Assembly (NCBI RefSeq): GCF_016751895.1
Contig: NZ_JACVVM010000004.1
Location: 1 to 35,385 of the forward strand
Origin: Candidatus Sarmatiella mevalonica
Lineage (GTDB): Bacteria > Pseudomonadota > Alphaproteobacteria > Rickettsiales > Rickettsiaceae
Direction: 5' to 3'
DNA length: 35,385 nucleotides
The translations under genes were made by a program, and so were the position numbers. The notes beneath the pieces are model-generated. The model did no database searches and was not told the DNA's origin. It saw nothing but the letters and a program-made list of their open reading frames with translations. Each line of letters opens with the position of its first letter. Positions within the stretch are counted from its first letter, which is position 1. Positions 1 to 35,043 of this stretch are shown in pieces.

Positions 1-132
1 AACTCGCTCATGATGAGCAAATGCGAGGAGTATACGAAGCACAGAGCCGCAGCGTACATGAAGTACGTGAGGACTTGCGCATCGACAGCGTCGCCACAGT
101 TGCCATCAGGAGTAGAGTTAGAAAAGAGGTCT
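1..132 (+). repeat. Palindromic repeat, copy a (cut by window start)
   Basis: This stretch aligns without gaps to 34568-34699, with only a handful of substitutions. It begins inside the repeat, so about 13 bases of its left end are missing. It ends with GAAAAGAGGTCTAAT, the conserved right terminus. It lies about 155 bp beyond the 3' end of hemW. The frame used by the mtaB copy is open through this copy until TAA just after the end. Positions 133-286 hold nothing I can recognise. Confidence 0.9.
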
Positions 133-5114: not shown

Positions 5115-5412
5115 TACCTCTTGTGCAAACTCTATTCCTGATGGCAACTACATATAGTAATTTAGGTTGAATTAGATATTTTAAATAATTTAGATACTTG
5201 GTCATAACTATTCCAAGCTTCTAATATATTGTACTACTTTTTCTCTTAAATCATTACTATAGCTTTTTGTCATTTTTCCTTTCATTATAACGAAAAATTA
5301 TATCTAATTCAACCTAAATTACTATACATCAGCGTCGATGCTTAAACCTTTACTTCAGTACGTTCAAAGTGCTGCACTTTCATTTGATCCATGTATTTAC
5401 TCATCATTGATA
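5115..5412 (-). repeat. Palindromic repeat, copy b, degenerate and split by a MITE
   Basis: The left arm (5115-5152) reads ACCTCTTGTGCAAACTCTATTCCTGATGGCAACT and matches the reverse complement of the repeat at 34555-34699. The right arm resumes at 5327 with CATCAGCGTCGATGC and can be followed, with growing divergence, through TTTACTTCAGTACG and CTGCACTTT to TTTACTCATCATTGA near 5412. Removing the MITE and one TA target copy restores a continuous repeat. This is the most decayed long copy in the window. Confidence 0.72.
5155..5324 (-). mobile_element. IS630-derived MITE (170 bp)
   Basis: Both termini carry the same inverted repeat as the IS630 copies at 24276-25169 and 32652-33568 (TAGTAATTTAGGTTGAATTAG). 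Flanking TA dinucleotides at 5153-5154 and 5325-5326 fit the TA target duplication of the IS630/Tc1 group. Inside remains only the start of the first transposase ORF, about 37 codons on the minus strand. The large internal deletion joins the two ends at a shared TTTTAAA, suggesting a microhomology event. It has no transposase of its own and could only move in trans. Confidence 0.88.
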
Positions 5413-6128: not shown

Positions 6129-7595
6129 CTAGCACAATTCGCCCAGCATTAAATTGCCGCGATATCCAGCCAGCCTCACCCTTGCAATATCAGACCTCTT
6201 TCTTGGCTCTACTCCCGATGGTAACTGCGTTTCGTATGCTCCTTGTATTTGCTCATCGTGAGCGAGTTCGGAAAGAGGTTTATTATTCGCAGTTCCGCGC
6301 CACACCCCCCGCACCTCCTCGCCATCTTCTAGCTGAACTTTAATGAAATTTTCACATCTCCCAACATTCCCACCTTCCATTAATACATCAACAGTCTTGC
6401 CAACATAAGATGCAAACAGCAGCTTTAATTGCTCATTACCCTGGGCACGCAGCAGCTTTGCGCGTTTCTTACGAATTTCCATAGCAATTTGAGGCATGCT
6501 AGCTGCAGGAGTGCCTGTGCGTACAGAATAAGGAAAGACATGCAAGAACTGTAATCCAGCCTCATGAATTAGATTAAAGGTGTTTAAAAACATTTCTTCG
6601 CTCTCCATAGGAAAGCCAGCGATAATATCCGCTCCCAAGGTGGCATCGGGCCTTGCTGCCTTGATATTATAGCAAAAATCTAGAATCTGTTGTCTGTTAT
6701 GCCTCCTCCTCATTAATTGTAAAACATCGTTATCACCCGACTGTAAACTTAAATGAAAATGCGGCATGATTCTTTTTTCGTGCGCCATTAATTCCATTAA
6801 CTCATCGTTAATTTCTGCCACATCTATCGAGGAAAATCTGAGTCTGGACAGGTTAGGCACCAGCTTTAACACTCTACGCGTCATCTGAGCGAGGCTGGGG
6901 CGGGCCGGTAGGTCTAAACCATAGCCAGTAATATCTACACCAGTAAAGACTATCTCCTTGTATCCATTTTGTAGAAGTTTATTAATTTGATCTACTATCA
7001 CGCCAACTGGCACTGACCTACTACGACCCCTAGCATATGGAATAATGCAAAAGCTACACCTATGGTTACAACCATTTTGGATCTGCAGAAAAGCTCTGCT
7101 GCGATTTTCAAAATGCGTTAGCGCCTCTATTGGCGGTATATGCTTCGCTGCAAAGATATTGTTAACCGATATCTTGCTACGATTGATACTAGCGCAATCT
7201 CGCCCATCCTCTTTCTCGCCCCCCTCATCTCGCTCTTGCTGTAAGCTATTCTGCGGCAAATTATTAAGATGTGATGAGTTGCTATGATAATTATCTGCAA
7301 GTAATTTTTCCTGGTTCCCCAAAACCTTACTCACTTCCTCCATATCTGCAAACAACTCAGGTTTAATCTGCGCAGCGCAGCCAGTGACTATAATTTGCGC
7401 ATTCGGTTTTTGCGCCTTAATGCGCCTAATGGCTCTGATAGCCTCTTTTTCTGCATCTTGGGTAACGGCGCAAGTGTTGAAAACAACTATTTGTTGCCCC
7501 TCATGCATCCGCTGTTTTTGTAAATTATCCTTGATGATTTGGCTTTCATAAGTGTTTAATCTACAACCAAAGGTGATAATTTCTACATCATTCAT
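6129..7595 (-). CDS. mtaB: tRNA t6A37 methylthiotransferase with in-frame repeat insertion
   Basis: MtaB is a radical SAM enzyme that converts t6A to ms2t6A at tRNA position 37. The N-terminal UPF0004 domain carries its cluster cysteines at C11 (FGCRLNTYE), C42 and C73. The radical SAM cysteines are C176, C180 and C183 in CNHRCSFCIIP. A C-terminal TRAM-like domain starts near residue 400. Two oddities lengthen it to 488 residues, against a usual 410-440. A hydrophilic, low-complexity linker lies at about 101-141. Residues 439-468 are exactly encoded by a 90-bp palindromic repeat, placed in the TRAM domain between a GVWRG strand and the final RVRLAGY strand. The catalytic core looks intact, so the protein is probably still active. 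Confidence 0.93.
   Translation of the reverse strand: MNDVEIITFGCRLNTYESQIIKDNLQKQRMHEGQQIVVFNTCAVTQDAEKEAIRAIRRIKAQKPNAQIIVTGCAAQIKPELFADMEEVSKVLGNQEKLLADNYHSNSSHLNNLPQNSLQQERDEGGEKEDGRDCASINRSKISVNNIFAAKHIPPIEALTHFENRSRAFLQIQNGCNHRCSFCIIPYARGRSRSVPVGVIVDQINKLLQNGYKEIVFTGVDITGYGLDLPARPSLAQMTRRVLKLVPNLSRLRFSSIDVAEINDELMELMAHEKRIMPHFHLSLQSGDNDVLQLMRRRHNRQQILDFCYNIKAARPDATLGADIIAGFPMESEEMFLNTFNLIHEAGLQFLHVFPYSVRTGTPAASMPQIAMEIRKKRAKLLRAQGNEQLKLLFASYVGKTVDVLMEGGNVGRCENFIKVQLEDGEEVRGVWRGTANNKPLSELAHDEQIQGAYETQLPSGVEPRKRSDIARVRLAGYRGNLMLGELC
6192..6281 (-). repeat. Palindromic repeat, copy c, in frame inside mtaB
   Basis: The copy is 90 bp, exactly 30 codons. On the coding strand it runs from AAACCTCTTTCC to AGAAAGAGGTCT. 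It keeps both inverted ends but lacks about 55 bp of the interior found in the 145-bp copies. The encoded peptide starts KPLSELAHDEQ and ends LPSGVEPRKRS. The interior loss leaves a length divisible by three, so mtaB stays open. Confidence 0.93.
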
Positions 7596-24007: not shown

Positions 24008-24111
24008 TGATTTCTTATCATCCAATCCTCTTTTTAAGGTTGAGCATTGCGCGACCTATTCTGAAGGGTAATTTTGTTGTCAAAACTCTTTTGCGCTCCT
24101 CATATACTAGA

Positions 24112-24182
24112 GTATGCTGCGGCTCTGTGCTTCGTATACTCCTCGCATTTGCTCATCATGAGCGAGTTTTGAAAGAGGTCTA
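24112..24182 (-). repeat. Palindromic repeat, copy e, half element
   Basis: Reading from GTATGCTGCGGCTCTGTGC to GAAAGAGGTCTA, this is nearly identical to the corresponding half of the copy at 34555-34699. The other half is missing: homology stops near 24112, and CTAGAGTATG replaces the expected sequence. The stretch from here to 24275, between the repeat and the truncated IS630, contains no gene that I recognise. Confidence 0.85.
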
Positions 24183-24275: not shown

Positions 24276-25169
24276 AGAATTAGGTATTTTAAAGAAATAA
24301 GAAATAGCCTCATATAATTGATTAAATTCAGTAATTTGATTTTTAATCCATCGTTTCATATTAGCCCAAAATTTCTCTATTGGATTCAGAGCCGGTGAAT
24401 ATGGAGGCAAAGAAATGATCCTGCAATTTACTATTCAATCAATTCTTTTGTCTTCTTAGATTTATGAAAAGAAGCATTTTCCATAATTACAACTTGGCCG
24501 GACTTTAATTCCTTAATTAAAACATTCTCCACCTAGCTTTCAAATAATAGTGCATTGCATGGACCATTAATACCATAGGTGCTGTTGACTTATCCTGCTA
24601 TAATATTCGTTCTTTCGTAATGTTTGCCACTCTTTTTACTAACTAGTTTCTCGCCTTTCTTTCCCCATCCCCGATCCTTGCATATCGTCATCTCGATACC
24701 GCTCCCGTCAATATAAACTACACTTTCAGTAGATATATCTTTTATTTTTTCCTGGTAATCTTGACGTCTTTCTTCGCTAGCTTCCAAGTAGGAAAAGTCT
24801 TTTTTTTATAGCGAAAGCCTAGATTTTTTAACCAGTAACTTATTGTAAAAATACTTACTCCAAATTTTTGGGCAGCTTTTTTCAATGTCATATTTTCATT
24901 TAATTTAACGTAGCTTTCAAGTGCTTCTAGATCAATTTTTCTTTTTGAACCACCTCGTTTCTTTGCAAGATAATTGCCTTCTTTTTTATATTTTCGGTAC
25001 CACCTTCCTATTGCTGATACACTTATTTTAAATAATTTAGATGCTTGGTCATAACTATTCCCAGCTTCTAAATATTGTACTACTTTTTCTCTTAAATCAT
25101 TGCTATAGCTTTTTGTCATTTTCCTTTCATTATAACGAAAAATTATATCTAATTCAACCTAAATTACTA
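24276..25169 (-). mobile_element. IS630-family insertion sequence, decayed and truncated (copy 1)
   Basis: The right end carries the full terminal repeat (AATTCAACCTAAATTACTA) with TA at 25170-25171. The left end is lost: similarity to the intact end of copy 2 stops at GAATTAGGTATTTT near 24276. The first ORF (25119-24742) encodes the helix-turn-helix half, 125 residues. An A8 run at its end looks like the frameshift site joining it to the catalytic half. The catalytic half is broken: a deletion near 24590 removes codons present in copy 2 and brings in a stop. The second acidic residue is also changed, MENASFH where copy 2 has MDNASFH. The element is not functional. Confidence 0.92.
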
Positions 25170-25622: not shown

Positions 25623-25772
25623 AAACCTCTTTCACACTCCACTCCTTCATGGCGATATGCGCGTAGTGTCCAACGCGAAATCCTCGCTTAACCCCATGCA
25701 GGCTCGAAGTTCCGTGATTATTCGTACACTCTTCACATTTATTCGTCATGCAGCGAGTTTCGAAGGAAGTCT
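25623..25772 (-). repeat. Palindromic repeat, copy f, full length but diverged
   Basis: This copy of about 150 bp runs from AAACCTCTTTCACACTCCACTCC to GCGAGTTTCGAAGGAAGTCT. Both terminal inverted repeats are recognisable. The interior is more diverged than in copies a, e and h, and the mtaB frame is closed by stops. Its boundary ATTAGAC overlaps the last base of the nuoE stop codon, so it forms the immediate 3' flank of nuoE. Confidence 0.82.
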
Positions 25773-28360: not shown

Positions 28361-29653
28361 ATGTTTTATCATATAAACTCTTTTTTAAATAACACCCTAA
28401 TGCTAAACTCTATAAAAGACATCGGATTGTTGCTCCCAAACTCCAATTTATTTACCGCACTCATAGCTAGCGGTTTTGGTGCAGTTGCAGCGATTTTACA
28501 CATGGAGTCTAGCAAAATGCGCAAGTTGTCAGTGAATTTTGAATATTTTGCGCTGTTATTAATCAATTTATTTGCTGGCATCGCTATCATTGGCTTACAA
28601 GACCTCTTCGCTCTTATGTGCGCTCTAGAATTACAAACCTTTTGTTTGTATGGGCTATGCATGCTATGCTCACAAAACGGCGCGGTAAATAGCATCACAA
28701 GATATTTAATCATTCATCTCATCGTGAGTGCAGTAGGGTTCTATGGGTTATCGCTAATCTATGGTTTTAATGATGGTAGTCTTGAATATCAGTCGCTTGC
28801 ACGAATTTTCAACAATCCAGAAAAGAGCGGTGCATGCATTGGTTTGTTTCTGTTCTGTATTAATATATGGTTCAAACTCTCTCTCGCGCCTTTTCATTTG
28901 TGGACGCTAGATCTATATAGCAGTATTAGCATTACAACCATAAACTACATTGCAACCGCTCAGAAGTTTACTATTTTACTTGGTTTGATAAATCTTATTA
29001 AATATCTACCAATCTCGCCTATCCTCTCTTCTTGGCTGTTACTTTTTCTCCTGACTTCTCTAATATTAGCGAGCATTTGCATTTTAACTGAAAAAAATAT
29101 TAAAAAAATTGTAGCATATAGCGAATTATTTAATACTAGCTATCTGTTGGTACCGATGACTATGAGTTTTAACCAAGATCTTTCCAAAATTTCTATCTTC
29201 TATCTTTTGGCTTATATGATTAACGGCATTGGTTTTACTGCTATCCTTGCCTCTCTTAGCAAGGCCGAGAAGCTAGAAGACTTGTCTGGCGTGGGGAGAC
29301 GCTACAAGTGGCTTGGCATTGCGCTCATCATAGTTTTATTCTCTAACGTGGGTATTCCACCTCTTTCCGGCTTCTTTGGTAAATATTTTATTCTGCATTA
29401 TTTATTTCAAGAACAGCAAATCTGCATAGCGCTTCTTGCAATAGGATGCAATCTAGTGATGTCTTTCTATGTACTTAACATGTTAAAGGTTGTTTATTTT
29501 GATCAAACTATGCCTATAAAGTTGGAAGGGCGGGGTATTAGACCTCTTGCCAAACTCGCTCATCACTCTCTCGTGTTTATTGCATATTTATCTATTAGCT
29601 TTATATTAGGAGCATTACTTGTTGTTGAGGAAATATTTCTATGTCTTGGTTAG
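28361..29653 (+). CDS. nuoN: NADH-quinone oxidoreductase subunit N
   Basis: NuoN is one of the three antiporter-like, proton-pumping membrane subunits of complex I. About 12-14 membrane helices are apparent in 430 residues, a little short for the family. The conserved lysine-bearing helix NIWFKLSLAPFHLWTLDLY, the segment NIKKIVAYSELFNTSYLL and the GIPPLSGFFGKYF loop are clear. nuoL and nuoM are absent, so the subunit is encoded apart from its partners. Residues 394-402 (RPLAKLAHH), in the loop before the last helix, look like a relic of the palindromic repeat. The gene overlaps birA by 13 bases. Confidence 0.94.
   Translation: MFYHINSFLNNTLMLNSIKDIGLLLPNSNLFTALIASGFGAVAAILHMESSKMRKLSVNFEYFALLLINLFAGIAIIGLQDLFALMCALELQTFCLYGLCMLCSQNGAVNSITRYLIIHLIVSAVGFYGLSLIYGFNDGSLEYQSLARIFNNPEKSGACIGLFLFCINIWFKLSLAPFHLWTLDLYSSISITTINYIATAQKFTILLGLINLIKYLPISPILSSWLLLFLLTSLILASICILTEKNIKKIVAYSELFNTSYLLVPMTMSFNQDLSKISIFYLLAYMINGIGFTAILASLSKAEKLEDLSGVGRRYKWLGIALIIVLFSNVGIPPLSGFFGKYFILHYLFQEQQICIALLAIGCNLVMSFYVLNMLKVVYFDQTMPIKLEGRGIRPLAKLAHHSLVFIAYLSISFILGALLVVEEIFLCLG
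29540..29566 (+). repeat. Palindromic repeat, copy g, in-frame relic inside nuoN
   Basis: AGACCTCTTGCCAAACTCGCTCAT matches the left end of the copy at 34555 in all but two of 24 positions, and it is preceded by ATT as in the consensus. It begins on a codon boundary of nuoN. It is read in the same frame as the mtaB copy (RPLAKLAH here, KPLSELAH there). No right end is visible. Confidence 0.62.
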
Positions 29654-33803: not shown

Positions 33804-35043
33804 TTAAGAGTGCAAAAAGAGGGTGTCGGGCGGTCTTAAGTTGTGAGATAATGTCTCGATAAAGCACTTCACGGTTGCACGAAAGCAGGATTTTAACCTA
33901 TCAAAGCCTAAGGTAAAAAGGAACCAAATAGGAACTTTTACCTCCTCTTTTTTCTTTATTTGTATCTTTTGATAGCCGGCTTCTATTAATCCTTGTTTAA
34001 TAATAATTGCAGCCGAAATTGCGGCTAAGGTGATCAATTTTTTATACCTTTCATGGCAAGTTATACGGCTTTTTTCAATATTGAATCCGCCGCTGTTTAA
34101 ATGTTTAAATAACCTTTCGATAGCCCACCTATATCTGTATTTCTCAAAAGCTTTTTGCTCTAATTCTTCGCAAGAAGCTAAAATCATTAAATTGCCCGAT
34201 TCATTTTTGGATGCGTAAATAATCACCTTGTGCCCCCACAAAATTCCTTCGGAATACTCATATCCTAAAGGTTTTAAATTTGCAAAAGCTTTTGCTCCTC
34301 TTCCCTTCTCTAGTGAAGCGCGTCCAGCCTGTATTAACCTAAGATGCATGTTACAACGGAGCGGGATAATAAAATTAATTTTCTTTTAAAAAATCTAGCC
34401 AATCTTTATTCATAAATTCTCTATCGGCAAGTAAGCGCTCGATGTTAATATTGGGAAAATAGGTCAAAAATTTTTGTAAAAATTCTTTCATCAACCTTGT
34501 CGAACAAGTGCCGCAATGGGGTAAAAATTCTCACATAATCGGTACGGAAATATTAGACCTCTTTCGAAACTCGCTCATGATGAGCAAATGCGAGGAGTAT
34601 ACGAAGCACAGAGCCGCAGCGTACATGAAGTGCGTGAGGACTCGAGCATCGACGGCGTCGCCACAGTTGCCATCAGGAGTAGAGTTAGGAAAGAGGTATA
34701 TTGTTTATAACTACCGCGAGAAATAAAGTATTAATATCCGTTTTTCCGAATTCCCAATTAGTTCTGTCCATTGCCAAAACATAACTTGTGATTCCGAATA
34801 AACCGATGATTAACTTAGCAATCGAAACAAAATCTATAGTAAAGCTTTTCAATAAACGATAAATTCTATGAGTTTTAGATTTATCCTTTGCGGGACCAGG
34901 AAGAGATAGCGCAAGCTCTTTTTGGTGAATACCAGCATCCGTAATAATACTCAAGATTGCTGCAACAAAAGATTTTACTCTTGATTTATTTCCGGCTATA
35001 TGAGGTGATAGCGCTTGAAGGCTTGAAGTAGTATATTATGCAT
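33804..35043 (-). pseudogene. IS4-family DDE transposase pseudogene
   Basis: The reading starts at an ATG at 35043 (MHNILLQA). An 8-bp tandem duplication (CTTCAAGC twice) then shifts the frame. It continues as LSPHIAGNKSRVKSFV through AMDRTNWEFGK to VVINN, where the palindromic repeat breaks it. Beyond the repeat it resumes as ISVPIM, a TGA replacing the expected tryptophan, then EFLPHCGTC. LLADREFMNKDWLDF follows, and a further small frameshift lies near 34385 before the last 181 codons. The DDE residues are visible in MDRTNW, LADREF and YRYRWAIERLFK, the last being the IS4 Y-R-E block. It cannot make an active enzyme. Confidence 0.9.
34555..34699 (+). repeat. Palindromic repeat, copy h, full length, inside the IS4 transposase
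   Basis: This is the best complete copy, about 145 bp from AGACCTCTTTCGAAACTCGC to GGAGTAGAGTTAGGAAAGAGGT. The outer 21 bases form an imperfect inverted repeat with 18 matches when the consensus flank is included. ATATT stands at both sides (34550-34554 and 34698-34702). Deleting the repeat and one ATATT restores the transposase codons for VINNISVPIM. The whole copy is open in the frame read in mtaB (RPLSKLAHDEQMRGVYEAQ and onward). Confidence 0.93.

Follow-up and report, generated by a model that had tools for sequence, protein, structure and literature searches.

How has a conserved tRNA-modifying enzyme come to contain residues that its homologues lack? The question is raised by mtaB of Candidatus Sarmatiella mevalonica, which lies in the 35,385-nucleotide stretch of contig NZ_JACVVM010000004.1 analysed here (the window, to which plain coordinates refer; the assembly is a draft of 122 contigs, 89.6% complete). 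The initial annotation described a 90-bp repeat copy, with both inverted ends, lying exactly on codon boundaries at residues 439–468 of MtaB, and saw in it mobile DNA turned into protein sequence. Translation and a repeat search confirm the placement, and the matches of a large repeat family bear out the origin. The features of the gene are as follows.

6129..7595, minus strand: mtaB, tRNA (t6A37) methylthiotransferase, 488 aa (TIGR01579; radical-SAM and UPF0004 domains; cysteines)
6192..6281, minus strand: contracted RPE1-like palindromic element, MtaB residues 439–468 (repeat match; missing in homologues)
6271..6281, minus strand: 5′ terminal inverted repeat, coding strand AAACCTCTTTC
6192..6202, minus strand: 3′ terminal inverted repeat, coding strand GAAAGAGGTCT
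6225..6231, minus strand: internal 54-bp (18-codon) deletion junction, TACGAA/ACGCAG
6282..6284, minus strand: upstream target-duplication copy, AAT on the coding strand; the left junction in the family is usually AAT/AGACC
6189..6191, minus strand: downstream target-duplication copy, GAT on the coding strand, presumed to be a mutated AAT

The ORF matches the MtaB model TIGR01579 over its full length with 422 bits against a cut-off of 357 (E = 2e-126). Cys11, 42, 73, 176, 180, and 183, invariant or nearly so among 36 sequences, are all kept, as are other invariant residues. Apart from the insert the gene is therefore intact, as had been claimed, with a complete ORF and the cluster cysteines present. 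Residues 439–468 (KPLSELAHDEQIQGAYETQLPSGVEPRKRS, encoded by the 90 bp at 6192–6281) are absent from more than 100 aligned homologous ORFs, one of which ends before the region, and the alignment check proposed at the outset thus gave the predicted result. The identity of these homologues is at most about 55–61%, and no empty mtaB site was found at the DNA level in closely related genomes. In a relative from the same family, Rickettsiaceae, the C-terminal 300 residues of MtaB are the same as in a record of Candidatus Phycorickettsia trachydisci. About seven further residues just before the insert (RGVWRGTA region) are also missing from relatives; the element does not explain them.

The TRAM loop differs in length among MtaB homologues, and natural expansion of this loop with no mobile element involved would be one reading. 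Its probability is negligible, since the DNA of the segment has inverted ends and recurs dozens of times across the genome: 67 pieces in all, the best other copy being 92% identical over 63 bp. Such a match is far beyond chance, and the repeat family rules out both chance and natural loop expansion.

The family, like the frame of the insert and the homologues without it, can be read directly from the sequence. The peptide of one full-length genic copy finds 145 places in this genome. Full-length copies run from AGACCTCTTTC to GAAAGAGGTCT with an ANT triplet on each side, and form palindromes of 144 or 145 bp with terminal inverted repeats, within the length criterion of about 105–146 bp. For the lpxK copy, folding gives a long hairpin (−70 kcal/mol, z = −10.3), whose tip is lost from the mRNA hairpin of the mtaB copy. 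The window holds further members in various states of decay.

1..132, plus strand: copy cut by the contig end, adjoining an IS5-type transposon end
34555..34699, plus strand: non-genic copy of full length (145 bp), flanked by an ATT/ATT duplication
24097..24181, minus strand: half copy
25625..25772, minus strand: old, diverged copy
29537..29563, plus strand: ATT followed by the element's first 24 nt, within a NuoN-like gene and translated as RPLAKLAH in the family's frame

At that point the NuoN-like protein has about eight residues more than its relatives, and its insert is probably a far-eroded genic copy. At 5115–5327, a fragment with IS630-like ends (TATAGTAATTTAGG...) abuts a palindromic-element remnant. 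Elsewhere in the genome, AGACCTCTTGCATAACC forms the ends of a further small element, about 141 bp long (L223, L298), which may represent another family of palindromes whose ends are related, and an ORF at 1–1038 of L258 (G000:C64:6500-7833) bears a tandem repeat with units like YAMGDKEQQDL.

The flanks of the family are mostly AAT/AAT or ATT/ATT. Among the 49 copies with ANT on both sides, the triplets are identical in 36 (13 of 15 genic ones; p = 7e-4 against 1/2), and the occurrence of ACT/ACT cases speaks for a true duplication. Beside the mtaB copy, whose inverted arms lie at 6186–6202 and 6271–6287, the AAT and GAT are, to judge from the sequence, probably the remains of such a 3-bp target duplication. 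As the duplication belongs to the insertion, the insertion in its present form amounts to 93 bp, or 31 codons; of the 30 extra codons first reported, residues 439–468 are real, while the size of the insertion has to be corrected.

The history of the length has to be revised too. It had been supposed that full-length copies, at about 145 bp, would put the gene out of frame, and that this one came to fit by losing about 55 bp inside. The 145-bp length is found mainly in non-genic copies, whereas full-length genic copies measure 144, 147, or 150 bp or are shorter multiples of three. The length is divisible by three in 17 of the 18 genic copies against 10 of the 38 non-genic ones (Fisher p = 1.3e-6), which are mostly 145 bp (25/38 leave remainder 1). 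The missing part itself is exactly 54 bp (18 codons) relative to the closest copy, in trhO (C18), which is of the 144-bp type, and in that copy it is bounded by the imperfect repeats GCACAG and GCGCAG. By its sequence signature the mtaB copy is of the genic 144-bp type, and its two halves are read in the frames that the lpxK copy uses. Arrival of a 145-bp copy in mtaB, with a frame shift later repaired by a loss of about 55 bp, would accord with the length of most non-genic copies and with the shortening seen here. This route is nevertheless quite unlikely in view of the lengths of the other full-length genic copies, the frames of the two halves, and the type of the closest relative, and it would demand that the frame-shifted state survive in the meantime. 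Most likely, the mtaB copy was in frame from the start, because it belongs to the 144-bp genic type and its deletion is exactly 54 bp.

Nor does mtaB stand by itself: its insert belongs, with about 30 genic copies in all, to a family resembling RPE1, the palindromic element of Rickettsia (TIGR01045) that PMC2229807 and PMC10969869 trace to Ogata et al. 2000. Both are palindromes of about 144 bp with inverted ends and an open frame of 48 residues, and both are inserted in frame in many unrelated conserved protein genes. In relatives, the best RPE1 copies (53–81 bits) are 144 bp long, run from AGACCTCTTTC to GAAAGAGGTCT, and have AAT/AAT or ATT/ATT flanks. TIGR01045 scores above its 30-bit cut-off in six relatives, reaching 92 bits, whereas the best copies in this genome attain 26 and 21 bits, and single peptides give 13–15 bits or no match; among 14 control genomes the same search found no RPE1. 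The family is called RPE1-like because it shares the workings and the build of RPE1 while staying below the curated cut-off. By its length, termini, reading frame, and 3-bp duplication, it appears to be a diverged relative of RPE1, distinguished by its sequence and high copy number (the 145 peptide matches) and, in mtaB, by the shortening to 30 codons. Selfish palindromes in proteins have been known since 2000, and the present family adds a diverged variant. PMC2229807 also describes small, non-autonomous repeats read as protein in other hosts, namely the protein-coding palindromes of Wolbachia and MITEs of the ERIC/Correia type fused in frame; they are likened here by description.

As for the machinery that moves these palindromes, the target duplication of RPEs is entered as unknown in a review (PMC2229807), and a search of the open literature (subscription papers lay outside its scope) found no paper naming an IS5 partner for them. 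A candidate comes from a relative, G024, which carries a 908-bp IS with ends AGACCTCTTTCGAAACTC and AGACCTCTTTCGAAACTGG. Both ORFs of this IS match the IS5-family transposase model NF033581, and identical ANT duplications flank all 16 copies with both flanks present. In the same genome the ends of RPE1 and of the IS are identical (18/18 and 17/17 nt). The autonomous element and the palindrome thus have matching ends within one genome and the same ANT target duplication, as expected of a MITE. They differ in that IS5-family elements (NF033581, DDE_Tnp_4) of 908–951 bp encode a transposase, while the palindrome encodes none and shares only the ends. Relatives of the G024 IS are present in 20 of the 85 family genomes searched, and the genome studied here retains a decayed 951-bp relative (C57) with AGACCTCTTTCGAAACT at both ends. 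The right end of the local palindrome subfamily (AGACCTCTTTCCTAACTC) fits the IS end less well, with 16 of 18 positions matching.

Two other elements were considered as partners. An IS630-type transposase gene in the window (24742–25119) was dropped, as the ends of that type (TATAGTAATTTAGG...) differ. As a partner, the G024-type IS is also better than the first IS5-like element encountered in this genome, whose ends, AGACCTCTTGCGTAAGTAT, agree only in part. The latter is a high-copy element (L257 = G000:C90, L218-L247) that breaks many contigs; many palindrome copies lie directly behind the stop codon of its transposase and so probably travel with it.

It is also conceivable that other machinery moved the RPEs and that the IS5 end match reflects shared ancestry or convergence without mobilisation: G003 and G009 both have RPE1 copies, and a DDE_Tnp_4 transposase was sought in these two genomes and not found. 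This account seems unlikely, given an identity of 17–18 nt at both ends in one genome and an ANT duplication common to both elements; moreover, loss of the IS after RPE spread would account for G003 and G009. The palindromes are thus most likely IS5 MITEs, a step that rests on matching ends and target sites, both legible in the sequence, from which we infer the responsible transposase and the order of events.

What the inserted peptide does in its hosts can be approached through the other genic copies. About 30 ORFs hold the element in frame, reading N-RPLSKLAHDEQ...LPSGVE..KRS. Carriers named by HMMs include LigA, MurF, TsaB, YbeY, FtsY, an RND permease, Mfd, ribulose-phosphate epimerase, CydB, TrhO, RecF, a photolyase, LpxK, and a mevalonate-kinase-like protein, and in several of them the insert interrupts the HMM domain match. 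In G024, similar copies occur in Era and LpxB, the latter at the C-terminal end. Three carriers are tRNA-modification genes, trhO (L171), tsaB (L200), and mtaB, and tsaB makes the t6A that MtaB modifies. This set was gathered by peptide search and, having been collected with the peptide, cannot prove a frame bias; among the 30 loci gathered by DNA, all seven genic cases share strand and frame, a small sample.

The genic copies are older than the free ones, with a median identity to the consensus of 77% against 96.5%. In 32 of them (a copy in the ComF ORF, probably upstream of the start, was left out), differences fall at codon positions 1, 2, and 3 in 349, 340, and 372 cases (p = 0.46), so that the test reveals no silent-site excess, the counts against the consensus mixing changes from before and after insertion. 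That some 30 different proteins contain the same peptide, inserted in one orientation and frame, might suggest that it was recruited for a function in the host proteins, such as a shared surface tag or binding segment. Such recruitment is very improbable: silent differences are not in excess, the mtaB and nuoN copies are eroded, the insert is predicted to be disordered, and the single frame is largely due to stop codons in the others. The element peptide appears to be tolerated rather than evidently useful.

How MtaB accommodates its insert is suggested by an AlphaFold model built from 36 sequences (mean pLDDT 80.6). The TRAM strands before and after the insert (401–422 and 470–487) are modelled with a pLDDT of about 90 or above, those following it exceeding 90, whereas loop 425–463 stays below 50 and is predicted to be disordered. 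In the model the insert therefore occupies a disordered loop in an otherwise well-folded TRAM domain. Gene loss is typical of obligate intracellular bacteria, and mtaB might accordingly be a decaying pseudogene, whose insertion would say nothing about tolerance. This is improbable: the ORF is complete, its HMM match well above the cut-off, its invariant residues are kept, the TRAM strands past the insert are confidently modelled, and some 30 other genes, several of them normally essential (ligA, ftsY, murF, tsaB), carry frame-keeping insertions. We infer that MtaB is made and active despite the insert. A precedent is the RPE-containing guanylate kinase of Rickettsia, likewise a conserved enzyme with a palindromic insert in frame, whose expression and activity were measured (Abergel 2006, as described in PMC2229807).

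Taken together, the mtaB segment is very probably a contracted RPE1-like MITE of the 144-bp type, inserted in frame by IS5 machinery at an ANT site and later deprived of 54 bp. An IS5-family transposase would have recognised the element ends (AGACCTCTTTCGAAACTC) and placed a copy in mtaB at an ANT target, with AAT duplicated. With the duplication, a copy of the 144-bp type would add 147 bp and keep the frame, the element frame being free of stops in the mtaB orientation. No essential part of the host would have been lost, since the insert came to lie in a loop between strands of the C-terminal TRAM domain. Slippage between the GCACAG and GCGCAG repeats probably removed 54 bp later, which would have shortened the loop by 18 residues and taken off the tip of the mRNA hairpin. 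More generally, it is likely that RPE1-type palindromes are IS5 miniatures of which only the class of 144 bp plus 3 bp persists in genes, eroding there in frame (from 48 to 30 residues in MtaB, to about 8 in the NuoN-like protein).

With mtaB, a striking case is added to the selfish palindromes already known within proteins. The roughly 30 genic copies amount to natural experiments, in which the same peptide sits in different enzymes at varied ages and stages of erosion, and they bear on the tolerance of proteins to insertions. Of most interest among the results is the likely mobilising IS5 element. The case offers a concrete and testable answer to how these palindromes spread. If it is true, the RPE1-type palindromes, known since 2000 without a known way of moving, would gain an IS5-family transposon as their means.
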